NCBI RefSeq assembly: GCF_000817735.3
Contig: NZ_JTJC03000005.1
Location: 310,001 to 374,000, forward strand
Direction of reading: 5' to 3'
Source of the DNA: Scytonema millei VB511283
Lineage (GTDB): Bacteria; Cyanobacteriota; Cyanobacteriia; Cyanobacteriales; Chroococcidiopsidaceae
DNA length: 64,000 bases
In this document: piece after piece, positions 31,826-38,542 of the stretch
Layout of the letters: the number at the start of each line of letters is the position of its first letter
Numbering within the stretch: the stretch's first letter is position 1
The notes under the pieces: model-generated
Told to the model about the DNA's origin: nothing
The model's database searches: none
What the model saw: only the letters and a program-made list of their open reading frames with translations
Position numbers and translations under genes: made by a program

Positions 31826-32371
31826 TTAATACACTGTAAAAGACTTAACCATTTGCTGTAGCTTTGGTGCGGCTTTTTGCCAACGCTGTTCCGTGGTGGA
31901 GGCGTTGAAAGTAAAGAGTTTGCCACGACTAACGGCAACACTAGCAAGATTGTGCCGTTGTTGCCGATCGGGTAACTTTACAGCATATTCTAGTATGTAG
32001 TAAGTTTTCCCGTTATAGTCTTGCTGCCCAGCATTGATTAATTCTGCTTCTCGTCCTGAATCAGGGGGTGCGATCGCACTTTTGCCCAGTTTATAACCCA
32101 CATCGCCAGGAGTTCCCAAATCGGCTAGGGTTTTGCCATCTGCGATGGAACCGATAACGACAGAAACATTCTCTGTGGTTTCAATCAAATCGTGCAATAC
32201 GATATCGGGACCGTCTGTTACTTTAACTGGTAGCCAGCCGTTAGGGTACAAGAACTCATATCCATCAACGCTATCGACAAAGCTTTTGAGTCCAGCAGTT
32301 GAGAGTACGCAACCCGATAGACTCAGCGCCATCAGTACTACGAGTAAAATCGATGCAATTCGTTTCAACAT
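31826..32371 (-). CDS. PsbP-domain lipoprotein (CyanoP)
   Basis: About 181 residues with a lipoprotein signal (ASILLVVLMALSLSGC, cysteine at about 20) and a PsbP domain marked by DGYEFLYPNGWLPVKVTDGPDI, GTPGDVGYKL, YYILEYAVKLP and RQQRHNLASVAVSRGKLFTF. CyanoP is a lumenal lipoprotein associated with photosystem II assembly, especially with D2. I chose the ATG at 32371; an upstream ATG at 32398 adds residues that read from a GGTCATTAGTCATT repeat. Confidence 0.9.
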   Translation of the reverse strand: MLKRIASILLVVLMALSLSGCVLSTAGLKSFVDSVDGYEFLYPNGWLPVKVTDGPDIVLHDLIETTENVSVVIGSIADGKTLADLGTPGDVGYKLGKSAIAPPDSGREAELINAGQQDYNGKTYYILEYAVKLPDRQQRHNLASVAVSRGKLFTFNASTTEQRWQKAAPKLQQMVKSFTVY

Positions 32372-32384
32372 TTTTAGTAGTGAG

Positions 32385-32480
32385 TGGTCATTAGTCATTG
32401 GTCATTAGTCATTGGTCATTAGTCATTGGTCATTAGTCATTGGTCGCTGCTCCCTGCTCCCTGCTCTCTGATAACTGATT
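32385..32480. repeat. GGTCATTAGTCATT repeat array
   Basis: At least four tandem copies of GGTCATTAGTCATT at 32388-32445, then CTGCTCCCTGCTCCCTGCTC at 32446-32467. It separates CyanoP from the divergent guanidine locus. Confidence 0.85.
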
Positions 32481-32565
32481 TGTATTGTCCCACCCCAGTA
32501 ACCTTCACGACTCCAGAAAGATAGCAAACAATTATGTTAGGAAATTTAGACATTTAATAAAATTA

Positions 32566-32607
32566 GTAACATTTAATACAGTTGCCCGATCCGGCGGTTG
32601 ATAATGT
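32566..32607 (+). promoter_or_regulatory. NtcA-activated promoter of the guanidine locus
   Basis: GTAACATTTAATAC at 32566-32579 is an exact GTA-N8-TAC NtcA box. After 22 nt comes TAATGT at 32602-32607, a TAN3T -10 element. This box-to--10 spacing is the class II NtcA promoter layout. Transcription would start near 32613, about 110 nt before the riboswitch. The locus feeds nitrogen metabolism, which supports the assignment. It has not been tested here. Confidence 0.7.
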
Positions 32608-32721
32608 CGCTATTAGCAGGTTGTATACAGCATTCAAATACTACAGAGAAGTAAACTCAAAAGTAAACAGAGTTTGCTTTTAGCTGAGTAAGGAATGCCG
32701 TTCAAAGACAAGTTTATAATA

Positions 32722-32917
32722 CCAAGCTTCTAGGGTTCCGGTTTGTAGCGTCTCAGCTGACGCTGTTAGCTCGCGTAGCAAATGCAGGTCCAAGAGAAGC
32801 GAGCTAGCAGTGCTAAGAATTTTCTGAGTTTTTAGTCGAGTAGCTAGTGACACGGAAGGAGAAAAGCCTGGGAGGAATATCAGTTGACATGACTGATGTT
32901 GTCTCCTGGGCTTTTTG
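32722..32917 (+). promoter_or_regulatory. Guanidine-I (ykkC-type) riboswitch with terminator
   Basis: The conserved guanidine-I words appear in order: CTAGGGTTCCG (32730-32740), AGGTCCAAGAG (about 32786-32796) inside a GTTAGCTCGC/GCGAGCTAGC stem, then GACACGGAAGGAGAAAAGCC and TGGGAG up to 32874. The 3' word AAAAGCCTGGGAG (32862-32874) can also pair with CTCCTGGGCTTTT (32903-32915), followed by T. That makes an intrinsic terminator competing with the ligand-bound aptamer, so guanidine should allow read-through. An inner ATCAGT/ACTGAT hairpin stabilises the terminator. The downstream genes for guanidine hydrolysis confirm the ligand. Confidence 0.93.
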
Positions 32918-32966
32918 CATAAATAGCAACTTAATCTAGTTTGAACAATTGAGCGAGGGCGATCGC

Positions 32967-34169
32967 ATGACTCATAATTCTGAAAATCCTTTGTTTCAGA
33001 GTCCAGACAATAACACTCATCAACCACCTACTGAAGCCCAACGCGCTTTAGAATTAGAAACACGACTGCCGATGACAGGTTGGCAGCAAGAGGTATCGAA
33101 AGGACTGGAATACGGATTAGAAGCAGCGCAGAGTATTCGCGATCGCACGATTCCTACCTTTTCTCGTGGCGAGTTACCCCACTACGCCGGAATTAATACT
33201 TTCCTCAAAGCCCCATACTTAGAAGATGTGCGTCAGGTAGGAAATTACGACGTGGCGATCGTTGGCGTTCCCCATGACTCCGGTACGACCTATCGACCTG
33301 GAACCAGATTCGGACCTCAGGGTATCCGTCGCATTTCTGCTTTGTACACGCCTTATAACTTCGAGTTAGGTATCGATTTACGCGAACAAATTACGATTTG
33401 CGATGTTGGAGATATCTTCACCATTCCCGCCAACAACGAAAAATCCTTCGATCAAATTTCTAAAGGCATTGCCCACATTTTCAGTTCTGGGGCATTTCCA
33501 ATTATTCTGGGTGGCGATCACTCAATCGGTTTCCCCACGGTACGGGGTGTATGTCGCCATTTAGGAGATAAAAAAGTTGGTATCATTCACTTCGATCGCC
33601 ACGTAGACACCCAAGAAACCGATTTGGACGAACGGATGCATACCTGCCCCTGGTTTCACGCCACTAATATGAAAAATGCGCCAGCGAAGAATTTAGTCCA
33701 ACTGGGAATTGGTGGTTGGCAAGTCCCAAGAAACGGGGTAAAAGTCTGTCGCGACCGCGCTACCAATATTCTCACAGTTACAGATATCGTCGAAATGGGC
33801 TTAGACGCAGCCGCAGAATTTGCCATCCAAAGAGCAACAGACGGTACAGACTGCGTTTACATCAGTTTCGATATCGACTGCATCGATGCAGGATTTGTCC
33901 CTGGTACTGGCTGGCCCGAACCAGGCGGTTTGTTACCCCGCGAAGCCCTGTCACTACTGGGTAAAATCGTGCAAAAAGTCCCCGTTTGCGGTTTAGAAGT
34001 TGTAGAAGTATCGCCCCCCTACGACATCAGCGATATCACCTCTCTAATGGCAACTCGCGTAATTTGCGATACAATGGCGCACCTTGTCCTATCGGGACAA
34101 CTACCCCGCAAAGAGAAACCAGCTTACATTCATCCCGAATCCCAACCCGAACTCGTCGCTTGGACTTAG
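32967..34169 (+). CDS. gdmH: Guanidine hydrolase, ureohydrolase family
   Basis: A 400-residue member of the arginase/agmatinase fold matching the nickel-dependent guanidine hydrolases (Synechocystis Sll1077 type), which split guanidine into ammonia and urea. Metal ligands are His185 (GGDHSIG), Asp210-His212-Asp214 (HFDRHVDTQE) and Asp302-Asp304 (SFDIDCID). An N-terminal extension of about 85 residues and the segment HTCPWFHATN are typical of this branch. The upstream guanidine-I riboswitch and downstream HypA/HypB-like maturation genes make the assignment strong. ATG 32967 has GAGGG upstream; TTG 32949 is an alternative. Confidence 0.93.
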   Translation: MTHNSENPLFQSPDNNTHQPPTEAQRALELETRLPMTGWQQEVSKGLEYGLEAAQSIRDRTIPTFSRGELPHYAGINTFLKAPYLEDVRQVGNYDVAIVGVPHDSGTTYRPGTRFGPQGIRRISALYTPYNFELGIDLREQITICDVGDIFTIPANNEKSFDQISKGIAHIFSSGAFPIILGGDHSIGFPTVRGVCRHLGDKKVGIIHFDRHVDTQETDLDERMHTCPWFHATNMKNAPAKNLVQLGIGGWQVPRNGVKVCRDRATNILTVTDIVEMGLDAAAEFAIQRATDGTDCVYISFDIDCIDAGFVPGTGWPEPGGLLPREALSLLGKIVQKVPVCGLEVVEVSPPYDISDITSLMATRVICDTMAHLVLSGQLPRKEKPAYIHPESQPELVAWT

Positions 34170-34299: not shown

Positions 34300-34662
34300 A
34301 TGCACGAAACCGATATGACCAAAGCGCTGATTCTTACCGTGCGCGACTGGTGGGAAGCACAGCCAGAAAAACCGAAAATCTCGCGAATTCACCTGATTGT
34401 AGGTCAGTTTACCTGCGTAGAGCCTGCCAGTTTGGAATTTGCCTTTGAAGTTCAAACGCGCAATAGCTTTCTTGCAGAGGCAAAACTAGCAATTCAGGAA
34501 ACACCCTTAATCGCCTTTTGCCATCGTTGCCAACAAGAATATCGTCCTGAAATTGGACTGCAATATGCTTGTCCGCAGTGTAAATCTCCTATGGACGACA
34601 TTCGCTCTGGACGAGAACTAAAAATCGATCGCATCGAATATTCAAATAAGGATGAGGGGTAA
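34300..34662 (+). CDS. ghaA: HypA-like nickel metallochaperone for guanidine hydrolase
   Basis: A 120-residue HypA/HybF-family protein. It has the N-terminal nickel ligand in MHET (His2), IHLIVGQFTCVEPASLEFAF, and a zinc site made of CHRC (about 68-71) and CPQC (about 88-91). In the guanidine pathway HypA- and HypB-like accessory proteins load nickel into GdmH. No hydrogenase genes are nearby and the gene sits between gdmH and ghaB, so this role is more likely than hydrogenase maturation. I chose the ATG at 34300 because His2 is required; upstream frame is repeat DNA. Confidence 0.9.
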   Translation: MHETDMTKALILTVRDWWEAQPEKPKISRIHLIVGQFTCVEPASLEFAFEVQTRNSFLAEAKLAIQETPLIAFCHRCQQEYRPEIGLQYACPQCKSPMDDIRSGRELKIDRIEYSNKDEG

Positions 34663-34740: not shown

Positions 34741-35442
34741 ATGCACCAAACATCTGATGCTGCCCTTGGGATTAATTTACTCCATGCCAATCAGGAAGGG
34801 GCTGATCGCAATCGCGCCCATTTTGATGAGTGGGGAATTACCTGTTTCAATGTTATGAGTAGCCCTGGTGCTGGTAAAACAGTATTACTCGAAAAAACAT
34901 TGGCAGCTTTAAAAGACGATCTCAAAATTGCTGTCATTGAAGGCGATATGACTACTGAATTAGATGCCGATCGCCTGCGTCAATACAATGTACCTGTTAT
35001 CGCAATTAATACTGGACGTGCTTGCCATTTAGATTCAAAAATGGTGGCAGGTGGCATTCATCAATTAGAACATCAATACAATCCCGCCGATCTCGATTTA
35101 GTCCTAGTAGAAAATGTTGGAAATTTAGTTTGTCCGGCTGAATTTGAAGTAGGCGAACACGCCAAAGTTGCTCTCCTAAGTGTTACGGAAGGAGAAGATA
35201 AACCGCTGAAATATCCAGTCATGTTTCGCGAAGCTGATTGCTTGCTCATTACCAAAATCGATTTAGCAATCCATTTAGATATGAACATTGACACAATAGT
35301 GGCAAATGTACGTCAAATTAACCCAAACGTGAAGATTATTCCCGTATCGGCGAAGACGGGAGAGGGTTTAGCAGTATGGTTTGACTGGGTGCGATCGCAA
35401 ATTGCTAAAAAAGAGCTAGAGGTCAGTAGAATCAGAGGTTAG
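34741..35442 (+). CDS. ghaB: HypB-like GTPase for guanidine hydrolase maturation
   Basis: A 233-residue SIMIBI GTPase of the HypB family. It has Walker [13 protein letters not shown] (about 40-51), the switch [12 protein letters not shown] with metal-binding Cys96-His97, [16 protein letters not shown] with Cys132, TKIDLA (G4) and [10 protein letters not shown] (G5). The His-rich N-terminus of some HypB proteins is absent. With GhaA it should deliver nickel to GdmH at GTP cost. It starts 78 bp after ghaA, with a GTCAAAA repeat between. Confidence 0.9.
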
Positions 35443-35694: not shown

Positions 35695-36735
35695 ATGAAA
35701 CTGCGATCGATAATTCAATCAATTTTTCTGTTTGTCATTAGTCTAGCGATCGCAGCAGGTTGCACTAATCCCGCAGTTTATATTACAACTACCACTGATG
35801 TTGCTGCTTCTGGTAATGCTGCTCCTAACGCTGCTAGCTTGGGATTTAGTGCGTGGCCTGGTTGGCTTCCTTGGCAAGTTACCCAAGAGCAAAAACTCTT
35901 TGAAGCAAACCAAGCTTCAGTCAATTTGAAATGGTTTGACGGCTATTTAGAATCGATTAATGCTCTAACAACCGAACAAATTAATGCTAACAGCCAGACT
36001 CTTAACGATACAATCAGTGCCGTGTCAGGTGGTGCAGATAAAGTCGTCATACTAGTCAACGACAACTCTACAGGCAACGATAAAGTCATCGTTCGTGAAG
36101 GCATCAATACAATTGCCGATTTGAAAGGCAAAAAAGTTGCCGCAGAAGAAGGCGCTGTAGATCATTTCCTATTGTTATTAGGAATGAAAAAAGCAGGCAT
36201 GAAGCCAGAAGACATCCAATTTGTCCCCTTAGAAACAGGACAAGCCGCAGCCGCTTTTGTTGGTGGACAAGTAGATGCAGTTGCCGTGTTTGCACCATTT
36301 ACCACTCAAGCCTTAAAGCGTCCTGGTAGTAAAGAACTCTTTAGTTCCAAAGAATTTCCTGGAGCAATTCCCGACCATCTAGTCGTCAGCCGTCAGTTTC
36401 TAGCAGAAAGTCCCGAAAAAGTGCAAGCAATGGTCGATTCCTGGTTTGCCACCCTTGATTACATGCAAAAAGAACCAGCCAAAGCAACAGAAATTATGGC
36501 AAAACGGGCAGGAGTTAGCGTTGCAGAGTACGAGGAATACGCCAAAGGAACCAAGATATTCACCTTGGAAGAAAACCTCAAAGCCTTTCAACCAGGTAAC
36601 AACATGACTTCGCTGATGTATGCAGCCGGAGAAATGACTAAATTTCTTGAAGAAGTCGGCTTAGCCAAACAAAAACCAGACCTAACTAAACTCTTCGACG
36701 ATCGCTTTGTCAAAGCATACGCTGAGAAACAGTGA
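35695..36735 (+). CDS. ABC transporter substrate-binding lipoprotein, probable guanidine uptake
   Basis: A 346-residue periplasmic binding protein of the NMT1/NrtA/SsuA type. It has a lipoprotein signal (FLFVISLAIAAGC, cysteine at 23), an opening FSAWPGWLPWQVTQEQKLF, LKGKKVAAEEGAVDHFLLLL and GGQVDAVAVFAPFTTQAL. It lies with permease and ATPase genes directly after gdmH-ghaA-ghaB, which suggests guanidine as substrate; related nrt-like genes also follow the guanidine hydrolase genes in other cyanobacteria. The sequence alone cannot separate guanidine from nitrate, sulfonate or thiamine precursors. Confidence 0.85.
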   Translation: MKLRSIIQSIFLFVISLAIAAGCTNPAVYITTTTDVAASGNAAPNAASLGFSAWPGWLPWQVTQEQKLFEANQASVNLKWFDGYLESINALTTEQINANSQTLNDTISAVSGGADKVVILVNDNSTGNDKVIVREGINTIADLKGKKVAAEEGAVDHFLLLLGMKKAGMKPEDIQFVPLETGQAAAAFVGGQVDAVAVFAPFTTQALKRPGSKELFSSKEFPGAIPDHLVVSRQFLAESPEKVQAMVDSWFATLDYMQKEPAKATEIMAKRAGVSVAEYEEYAKGTKIFTLEENLKAFQPGNNMTSLMYAAGEMTKFLEEVGLAKQKPDLTKLFDDRFVKAYAEKQ

Positions 36736-36821: not shown

Positions 36822-37661
36822 ATGAATACAGGCTCGATTCGTCCCCCATCTAATCCAAAAACGCTTAGCCAGACGGTTTTTTGGCGGTTGGCTGAAGATA
36901 TTCCCAGACCATTAAATGCCTTACTAGTAGCAACTTCTATCGGCTTGCCCTTGCTGATTTGGTGGCTAGTGACAACATTTGGTAGCGTAGATCCCAAGTT
37001 TCTGCCCTCGCCTGCTAGGGTACTCGAAGCATTTGGGCGATTGTGGAGGACTCGCGAACTGCTGAAGGATACTGTAGCGAGCCTCTGGCGAGTGGGTGTA
37101 GGGTTTTTGTTAGCAGTCGTGTTGTCGATTCCAGTTGGGGTGTTGATGGGCAGTTTTGCCAGTATTCGCGCTTTATTAGAACCATTATTTGGTTTGATGC
37201 GCTATATGCCTGCGCCTGCTTTTATTCCATTACTCATTCTCTATTTAGGAATTGGAGAAGAGCCGAAAATCACTTTGATTTTCATCGGCGTGTTTTTCTT
37301 CAATTCTTTAATGGTGATGGATACGGTCAAGTTTGTACCAAAAGACTTGATCGAAGCCACCTATACTTTGGGTGGCGATCGCTGGCAGACATTGACTCAA
37401 GTTATTTTTCCCCACGTTTTGCCAGGAATCATTGATGCTTGTCGAATTAACCTAGCAGCCGCATGGCAATTAGTCATTGTCTCAGAACTAATTGCTGCAA
37501 CCGAAGGTTTAGGACGCAGAATCAGCGTCGCCGGTCGATTTCTCAAAACCGATGAAATCTTTGTTGGCTTAATCGTTATTGGAATCATCGGACTCACTTT
37601 TGACCTCTTGTTCCAATGGCTCTTACGTGTTTCTTGTAAGTGGGCAAGTCAGAAGAGATAA
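36822..37661 (+). CDS. ABC transporter permease, SsuC/NrtB type
   Basis: A 279-residue inner-membrane permease with six predicted helices. The EAA-type coupling loop is EATYTLGGDRWQTLTQVIFP, and the C-terminal LGRRISVAGRFLKTDEIFVG is typical of the nitrate/sulfonate/taurine family. I chose the ATG at 36822 (MNTGSIRPPSN) because the longer open frame is translated repeat DNA. It is the membrane partner of the binding protein upstream and the ATPase downstream. Confidence 0.9.
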   Translation: MNTGSIRPPSNPKTLSQTVFWRLAEDIPRPLNALLVATSIGLPLLIWWLVTTFGSVDPKFLPSPARVLEAFGRLWRTRELLKDTVASLWRVGVGFLLAVVLSIPVGVLMGSFASIRALLEPLFGLMRYMPAPAFIPLLILYLGIGEEPKITLIFIGVFFFNSLMVMDTVKFVPKDLIEATYTLGGDRWQTLTQVIFPHVLPGIIDACRINLAAAWQLVIVSELIAATEGLGRRISVAGRFLKTDEIFVGLIVIGIIGLTFDLLFQWLLRVSCKWASQKR

Positions 37662-37765: not shown

Positions 37766-38542
37766 ATGTATCTACAAATCACCAAACTCCATAAAAATTT
37801 CGAGACAAAATCGGGAACGTTAGTTGTCCTCAAAGACATTAATATGTCGATCGAGCGGGGTGAATTTATCTGTGCTGTGGGTGCATCGGGTTCGGGTAAG
37901 TCTACTCTACTGCGCCAGATTGCCGGACTCGATTTACCAACAGCGGGAGAAGTGAAAATCGATGGCGTGCGCGTTCAAGGACCAGGACCAGATCGGGGCA
38001 TGGTGTTTCAGCACTACACGCTTTATCCTTGGATGAACGTACAGGAAAATGCTGAATTTGGACTCAAACTTCAGGGATTTTCCAAGCGGGAACGACGGGA
38101 AAAAGCTAGTTACTATTTGAGCGTAGTTGGACTGACTAAGTTTGCTAAATCCTTGCCCAAGGAGTTATCTGGTGGAATGAAACAACGGGTAGCGATCGCC
38201 CGCGCTCTCGCCTCAGAGCCTAAAGTATTATTGATGGACGAACCTTTTGGTGCTTTGGATATTCACACTAAAGAGTCTATGCATGAATTCATGCTGGATC
38301 TGTGGCAGCGTACCAACATCACCATTTTCACGATCACCCACGATGTGGAAGAAGCTGTATTTCTCTCAAATCGGATCTACGCTCTCGGCGCTCGTCCTGG
38401 TACGGTCAGAAAAGAAATTTCAATTAAACTCCCCGAACGCACCCACACCGTCAAGCGTCATTCTATATTCCACGACTACTGCGACGAATTGATGGATCTG
38501 CTCCGGGGACACTCACAGGAAGCTCTGGCAGTGTCTTCTTAG
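37766..38542 (+). CDS. ABC transporter ATPase, SsuB/NrtD type
   Basis: A 258-residue nucleotide-binding subunit with Walker A GASGSGKST, Q-loop MVFQHYTLYPWM, signature LSGGMKQRVAIARAL, Walker B VLLMDEPFGALD and switch His in ITHDVEEAVFL. It matches the ATPases of nitrate/sulfonate/taurine-type importers and completes the ABC set with the two preceding genes. The start is ATG 37766 (MYLQITKLHKNFE). The stop overlaps the convergent VOC gene by 4 bp, so transcription of the locus ends about here. Confidence 0.9.
   Translation: MYLQITKLHKNFETKSGTLVVLKDINMSIERGEFICAVGASGSGKSTLLRQIAGLDLPTAGEVKIDGVRVQGPGPDRGMVFQHYTLYPWMNVQENAEFGLKLQGFSKRERREKASYYLSVVGLTKFAKSLPKELSGGMKQRVAIARALASEPKVLLMDEPFGALDIHTKESMHEFMLDLWQRTNITIFTITHDVEEAVFLSNRIYALGARPGTVRKEISIKLPERTHTVKRHSIFHDYCDELMDLLRGHSQEALAVSS

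Follow-up and report, generated by a model that had tools for sequence, protein, structure and literature searches.

The closest described counterpart of the locus analysed here is the sll1077-sll1082 cluster (gdmH-ghaA-ghaB-ABC) of Synechocystis sp. PCC 6803, which is preceded by a guanidine-I riboswitch (PMC8390497, PMC10094980, PMC12186494; throughout, PMC numbers refer to the parts of the articles available to us). The window, by which we mean the whole stretch of 64,000 nucleotides under analysis, has the same gene order and the same type of switch. Promoters activated by NtcA have been described as carrying GTAN8TAC near -41.5, combined with a -10 element of the form TAN3T (PMC3898017). 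In Synechocystis, gifB is controlled by NtcA at initiation and by a glutamine riboswitch in the leader (PMC6316151). An NtcA site at the gdmH operon is not stated in the available parts of PMC12186494, PMC10094980, PMC12930504, PMC8390497, PMC13226834, PMC13192157, PMC8400943, PMC3898017, PMC6316151, PMC10119275 and PMC2242806, and literature from 2017, 2022 or 2025 may report one.

We propose, with a probability of about 0.88, that the guanidine-assimilation operon of the window is transcribed from a class II NtcA-activated promoter, and that promoter and riboswitch together form an AND gate responding to low nitrogen and guanidine.

The operon is located on the + strand. Its first gene, gdmH (32967..34169), encodes a probable Ni-dependent guanidine hydrolase, a predicted activity, and the product matches Pfam Arginase. 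The best solved relative is 7esr/7oi1 (E 1.6e-237), titled 'Probable agmatinase 2', which we take to be Sll1077/GdmH, a guanidinase; the NCBIfam agmatinase models match below cut-off only. The next two genes encode a HypA-type nickel chaperone (ghaA, 34300..34662, TIGR00100 above cut-off) and a HypB-type nickel GTPase (ghaB, 34741..35442, TIGR00073 above cut-off). Both features that characterize GdmH, a ureohydrolase close to 7esr/7oi1 and partners of the hypA/hypB type, are found here. Further downstream lie the genes for the substrate-binding protein of a probable guanidine importer of the ABC type (35695..36735; TIGR01728, SsuA family, above cut-off), a permease (36822..37661; TauC/SaoP-like, below cut-offs) and an ATPase (37766..38542; TauB/SaoA-like, below cut-offs). 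Guanidine is the probable substrate of this importer, as judged from synteny with sll1080-1082 (PMC8390497, PMC10094980).

The candidate class II activator site, GTA-N8-TAC with the letters GTAACATTTAATAC, occupies 32566..32579 on the + strand, and a -10 element of the TAN3T type, TAATGT, is located at 32602..32607, 22 nt past the box. Both were read directly. The first-pass annotation had described this geometry as that of an NtcA-activated promoter about 150 nt ahead of a riboswitch. The geometry is exact on the + strand, and the distance from the start of the box to the start of the aptamer is 153 nt (164 nt from the box to the aptamer core, in the top tenth of the loci compared). Two sequence features of class II NtcA promoters, GTAN8TAC (minimum GTN10AC) and TAN3T about 22 nt past it, are both present in the window. 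In promoters of this class the NtcA site replaces the -35 hexamer of the sigma-70 type, and a pattern scan of 32380-32980 found no sigma-70-type -35/-10 pair ahead of the aptamer. With the box centred at -41.5, +1 falls 48 nt after the start of the box, and the predicted transcription start is position 32614 on the + strand.

A guanidine-I (ykkC) riboswitch aptamer, RF00442, is located at 32719..32876 on the + strand (61 bits, E 2.8e-10, all 107 model positions), and is the sole match to this family in the genome at E 0.001. A default Rfam scan omitted the aptamer because its score lies 2 bits under the gathering cut-off of 63. When the aptamer was folded by free energy on its own, the structure given by the covariance model was not recovered, and the aptamer structure therefore rests on the covariance-model match. 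An intrinsic terminator follows at 32866..32916 (+ strand), consisting of a hairpin (32866-32911, -27.7 to -30.9 kcal/mol) and five T. It was missed by the pattern scan, which listed no terminator in the promoter region of the window, because the stem contains a bulge. In RNA starting at 32862 the hairpin has a folding energy of -30.9 kcal/mol, and the 3' arm of aptamer stem P3 serves as its 5' arm. Aptamer and terminator compete because both use this arm. The ligand control at elongation that had been suggested for the locus is well founded in this respect, since the 3' arm of the guanidine-I aptamer can also form the 5' arm of the terminator. Such a competing pair is the arrangement of a guanidine ON switch, and a response to guanidine is predicted.

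The predicted leader RNA that precedes the aptamer (32614..32718, + strand) is longer than in most relatives. Compared with shuffled sequences, it folds with a z-score of -4.8 over 110 nt, and the corresponding values in two genus mates are -5.4 and -5.3. It contains a hairpin of 12 pairs with an 11-nt loop (32647..32681, + strand), which is present in both genus mates and in which a U.G pair is C-G in one of them (G387). A comparison with Rfam at E up to 1 gave no family for the hairpin. The sequence AGTAAAC occurs twice, and the two copies could be rivals for one 3' arm. Among 17 other leaders of at least 60 nt, z-scores were -6.7 (L042), -4.7 (L026) and -2.7 (L159), and above -1.7 for the other 14.

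In the mechanism that we propose, NtcA loaded with 2-oxoglutarate would bind the box at about -41.5 during nitrogen shortage and recruit RNA polymerase. PipX aids NtcA in general and would help it at this box. Transcription would begin near 32614, and the polymerase would then read the aptamer. With guanidine absent, the terminator at 32866-32916 would form and the transcript would end; with guanidine present, the aptamer would hold P3, and transcription would continue into gdmH, the nickel chaperones and the importer. The operon would be fully on only with nitrogen limiting and guanidine present, an AND behaviour that follows if the NtcA initiation step and the guanidine termination step both hold. 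We infer the initiation step from geometry and conservation, and guanidine-dependent continuation from the competing RNA structures. In Synechocystis, ammonium lowers the expression of sll1077-1082 (PMC10094980), a response that fits NtcA control of the operon. The same response depended on Slr1821, and only 17/46 NtcA-activated genes were repressed by ammonium (PMC10094980). Other regulators may therefore act, and NtcA may not be the sole control.

A perfect TATAAT at 32715-32720, directly before the aptamer, is present in both genus mates as well, and could be the -10 element of a constitutive promoter that drives the operon, in which case the NtcA box would be a relic or a modulator only. 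By hand reckoning, the start point of such a promoter would be at ~32725-32727, inside the 5' arm of P1, and the aptamer would therefore be cut. For this reason we rejected TATAAT as the main promoter. No -35/-10 pair passes the pattern scan at this place, and the NtcA box and its -10 element, in contrast, recur across families. We consider it improbable that the operon depends on this element.

In the window, GTAN8TAC gives 36 counts over the two strands; the motif is palindromic, and the number of sites is therefore 18. From 60 first-order simulations, 19 counts or about 9.5 sites are expected. With TAN3T at 20-24 nt there are three box/-10 pairs in 64 kb compared to 1.5 expected, and with TAN3T at exactly 22 nt there is one compared to 0.38 expected. 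These numbers are within what chance would give in 64 kb. The motif would not be significant on its sequence alone, and conservation therefore had to be examined.

The gdmH gene is 99% identical in the two genus mates (G386 and G387). A comparison with close relatives had been recommended in the first-pass annotation, and it left the proposal standing: in both genomes the 14-nt box and the hexamer at -10 are the same as in the window. There are four variable columns among the 22 nt that separate them, and the sequence farther upstream of the box has diverged. In the psbP-promoter interval, at ~32386-32445, the window has short tandem repeats of the TCATTGGTCATTAG type, where other sequence is found in the genus mates.

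For a broader comparison we used two sets of loci, which share species. The named set was taken from the best 80 of at least 574 gdmH relatives; 69 of these have a 5' aptamer core and, together with the window, make up 70 loci. The phylum sample partly overlaps this set and comprises 386 genomes, 121 of them with the riboswitch. Of its 129 riboswitch places 92 were analysed, namely all 69 outside family f31 and 23/60 in f31, and 53 switches in the sample, including that of the window, are linked to gdmH. Merging yielded 115 loci; only loci with identical 200 nt upstream were removed (8), and related species remain.

The range searched for the box, 30-230 nt upstream of the aptamer core (CTAGGG), was picked after an initial view of the data. 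Exact GTAN8TAC occurs in this range at 49/70 loci of the named set, at 33/53 gdmH switches of the phylum sample, and at 77 of the 115 merged, non-identical gdmH riboswitch loci. When all 64 palindromes of the form XXX-N8-revcomp(XXX) are compared at the 115 loci, GTA ranks first with 77, followed by AAA (29) and TTT (22), with a median of 4. A control stretch at -630..-430 contains the box in 5/108 loci. The most frequent control pattern in the named set was GTAN7TAC (11/70), followed by TCAN8TGA (10); that GTAN7TAC is also somewhat frequent counts against the box reading. At least one exact box was found in 18 of the 20 families of the phylum sample that have riboswitch-linked gdmH.

The spacing between box and -10 element mostly recurs as well. 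Of the 77 boxed loci, 59 have TA at exactly 22 nt; at other distances between 8 and 44 nt TA is found in at most 13, save for 28 nt (28 loci) and 39 nt (18 loci). The full TAN3T is present at 22 nt in 26/77 boxed loci, compared to at most 8 at other distances. A logo of the boxed loci has T at -4..-2, A/T at +14, and T at +16 and +17, and these candidate sites agree with the A/T positions (3, 4, 21, 23 and 24) described for the extended NtcA site (PMC3898017). For all 82 boxes within 400 nt, the closest box-to-core (CTAGGG) distance is at least 55 nt. Since +1 is expected 48 nt after the start of the box, ~55 nt is the shortest distance that leaves P1 whole, and we infer that this minimum agrees with a transcription start set by the position of the box. 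Altogether, the same box and -10 element in the genus mates, recurrence in most families and the mostly 22-nt spacing support the earlier assignment as a class II NtcA promoter. One locus of the set (L033) comes from a record titled Candidatus Gracilibacteria and has a gdmH 86% identical to that of the window, with switch and box; the contig is probably cyanobacterial and mislabelled.

That the box is a functionless chance match in the genome would be in line with the numbers for the 64-kb window, where box/-10 pairs are only slightly in excess. It is opposed by the identity in the genus mates, the presence in 18/20 families and at 77/115 loci, and the sharp peak of TA at 22 nt, and we rejected it on this comparison across loci as very unlikely. 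It is conservation that raises the candidate box above chance.

An exact box in range is lacking at 38 loci; at 13 of these a box with one mismatch is followed by TA at 21-23 nt, compared to 1.3 expected. In family f25, GTAN9AC is located 58-62 nt before the aptamer core in 13/13 loci (L088, L095, L097, L102, L169, L172-L175, L201, L204, L208 and L209), with no TA at 21-23 nt after this degenerate box. The arrangement is a putative variant form of the promoter, and NtcA was found over cut-off in 3/3 f25 genomes examined. At 12 of the 115 gdmH riboswitch loci there is no box in any form tried within 230 nt; one of these (L059) has its exact box at 234 nt, followed by TA at 21-23 nt. In family f8, the box of L183 lies in a run of T and reads GTA-N10-TAC, while that of L156 has the N8 spacer; it looks as though the former had been disrupted by slippage.

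The box counts leave out 11 named loci without a recognisable 5' aptamer core (L006, L011, L036, L047, L048, L050, L051, L062, L069, L077 and L081). In one of them (L050) TA stands 22 nt after a box, two others have a box that lacks TA at this distance, and eight are boxless within 500 nt of gdmH. At the gathering level, Rfam returned only tRNAs for the 11 loci. L050, from Symploca sp. SIO1C2, has its NtcA box 72 nt upstream of gdmH and no recognisable guanidine switch, and L006 retains the 3' half of the aptamer without the 5' core.

Guanidine-I switches of SMR/SugE exporters belong to the same aptamer family, RF00442, as the switch in the window, but they serve detoxification. All 23 analysed f31 switches, which are the best-scoring matches among 60 and not a random draw, stand ahead of a gene whose product carries the SMR N-terminal motif, and 3/3 f31 proteins scanned are of the SugE type above cut-off. 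A box precedes 3/23 of these switches versus 33/53 gdmH switches (Fisher p 1.1e-4, indicative only because the genomes are related). In the same search, NtcA was over the model cut-off in 0/23 f31 genomes versus 9/9 other genomes. A further 16 switches lie outside f31; their operon labels were assigned from translations, with one DUF1989 member confirmed by Pfam. The box is present before 5/6 DUF1989 (carboxyguanidine-deiminase-type) operons (L158, L162, L167, L170, L200 and L203), before 3/8 importer operons headed by a substrate-binding protein, which is a lower share than for gdmH operons, and before 1/1 symporter-type gene and 0/1 ATPase gene. By a rough folding test, a terminator that shares an arm with the aptamer is found at 61/70 named loci, 32/53 gdmH loci of the phylum sample, 12/16 of the other loci and 19/23 f31 loci.

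NtcA itself is encoded in the genome, with a score of 388.7 bits compared to a cut-off of 245 and a full-length match to the NtcA in 8h3v, and GTAN8TAC also occurs upstream of ntcA. The genome contains seven further, weaker matches to the NtcA model, and another protein of the CRP/FNR family might use the site instead. Only one of the eight matches is over the NtcA cut-off, however, and GTAN8TAC at -41.5 with TAN3T is the pattern described for NtcA (PMC3898017), which makes a different regulator hard to credit. The least probable reading is that the box serves the divergent neighbour psbP (31826..32371, - strand; NF040946, 263.8 bits), which starts ~195 nt from the palindromic box on the other strand but is not thought to use it, and which we rejected on account of its wrong -10 spacing (by eye, the minus strand has no TAN3T 20-24 nt past the box, the nearest being at 17 and 26) and its lack of linkage outside the genus (among 107 loci, and within the flanks searched, psbP is near gdmH in the window and the two genus mates only, while the association of the box with gdmH extends across families).

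With NtcA as the preferred regulator, we speculate on a more general scheme, which as a whole we regard as doubtful. The AND gate of NtcA initiation and guanidine-I terminator would be old and nearly phylum-wide, present at most gdmH operons and most operons of the carboxyguanidine-deiminase type, and absent from switches that serve export alone. The leader hairpin found in the genus, between start and aptamer, would then be a third, undescribed control step.

The proposed control would place guanidine, whose role as a nitrogen source has come to light only recently, under the master regulator for nitrogen in cyanobacteria. As the arrangement recurs at most of the operon copies examined, the gdmH-operon genes are probably expressed only under nitrogen scarcity with guanidine available. 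The resulting switch has two inputs and is clean and testable. Two uses of a single riboswitch class are also set apart, the food-type switches being mostly behind an NtcA site and the examined exporter-type switches mostly not. The guanidine-I riboswitch has been adopted as an expression tool in cyanobacteria (PMC13226834), for which a nitrogen dependence of the native promoter would matter. Each of the components, NtcA promoter, guanidine switch and gdmH, was known before, and the main gain is the breadth of conservation, which remains new even if the work from 2017, 2022 or 2025 already reports NtcA at sll1077.

To our knowledge, none of the NtcA-activated genes glnA, nirA, urtA and ntcB carries a downstream riboswitch. 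Their promoters have GTAN8TAC near -41.5 and a TAN3T -10 element, as in the window (PMC3898017). The combined control of one gene by NtcA and a riboswitch for a nitrogen metabolite has a precedent in gifB, which shares this layout with the window (PMC6316151). The two differ in the sign of the NtcA effect and in the ligand: at gifB, NtcA represses from a site at -7.5 and the riboswitch ligand is glutamine, whereas in the window NtcA is predicted to activate, and the ligand is guanidine, the substrate itself.
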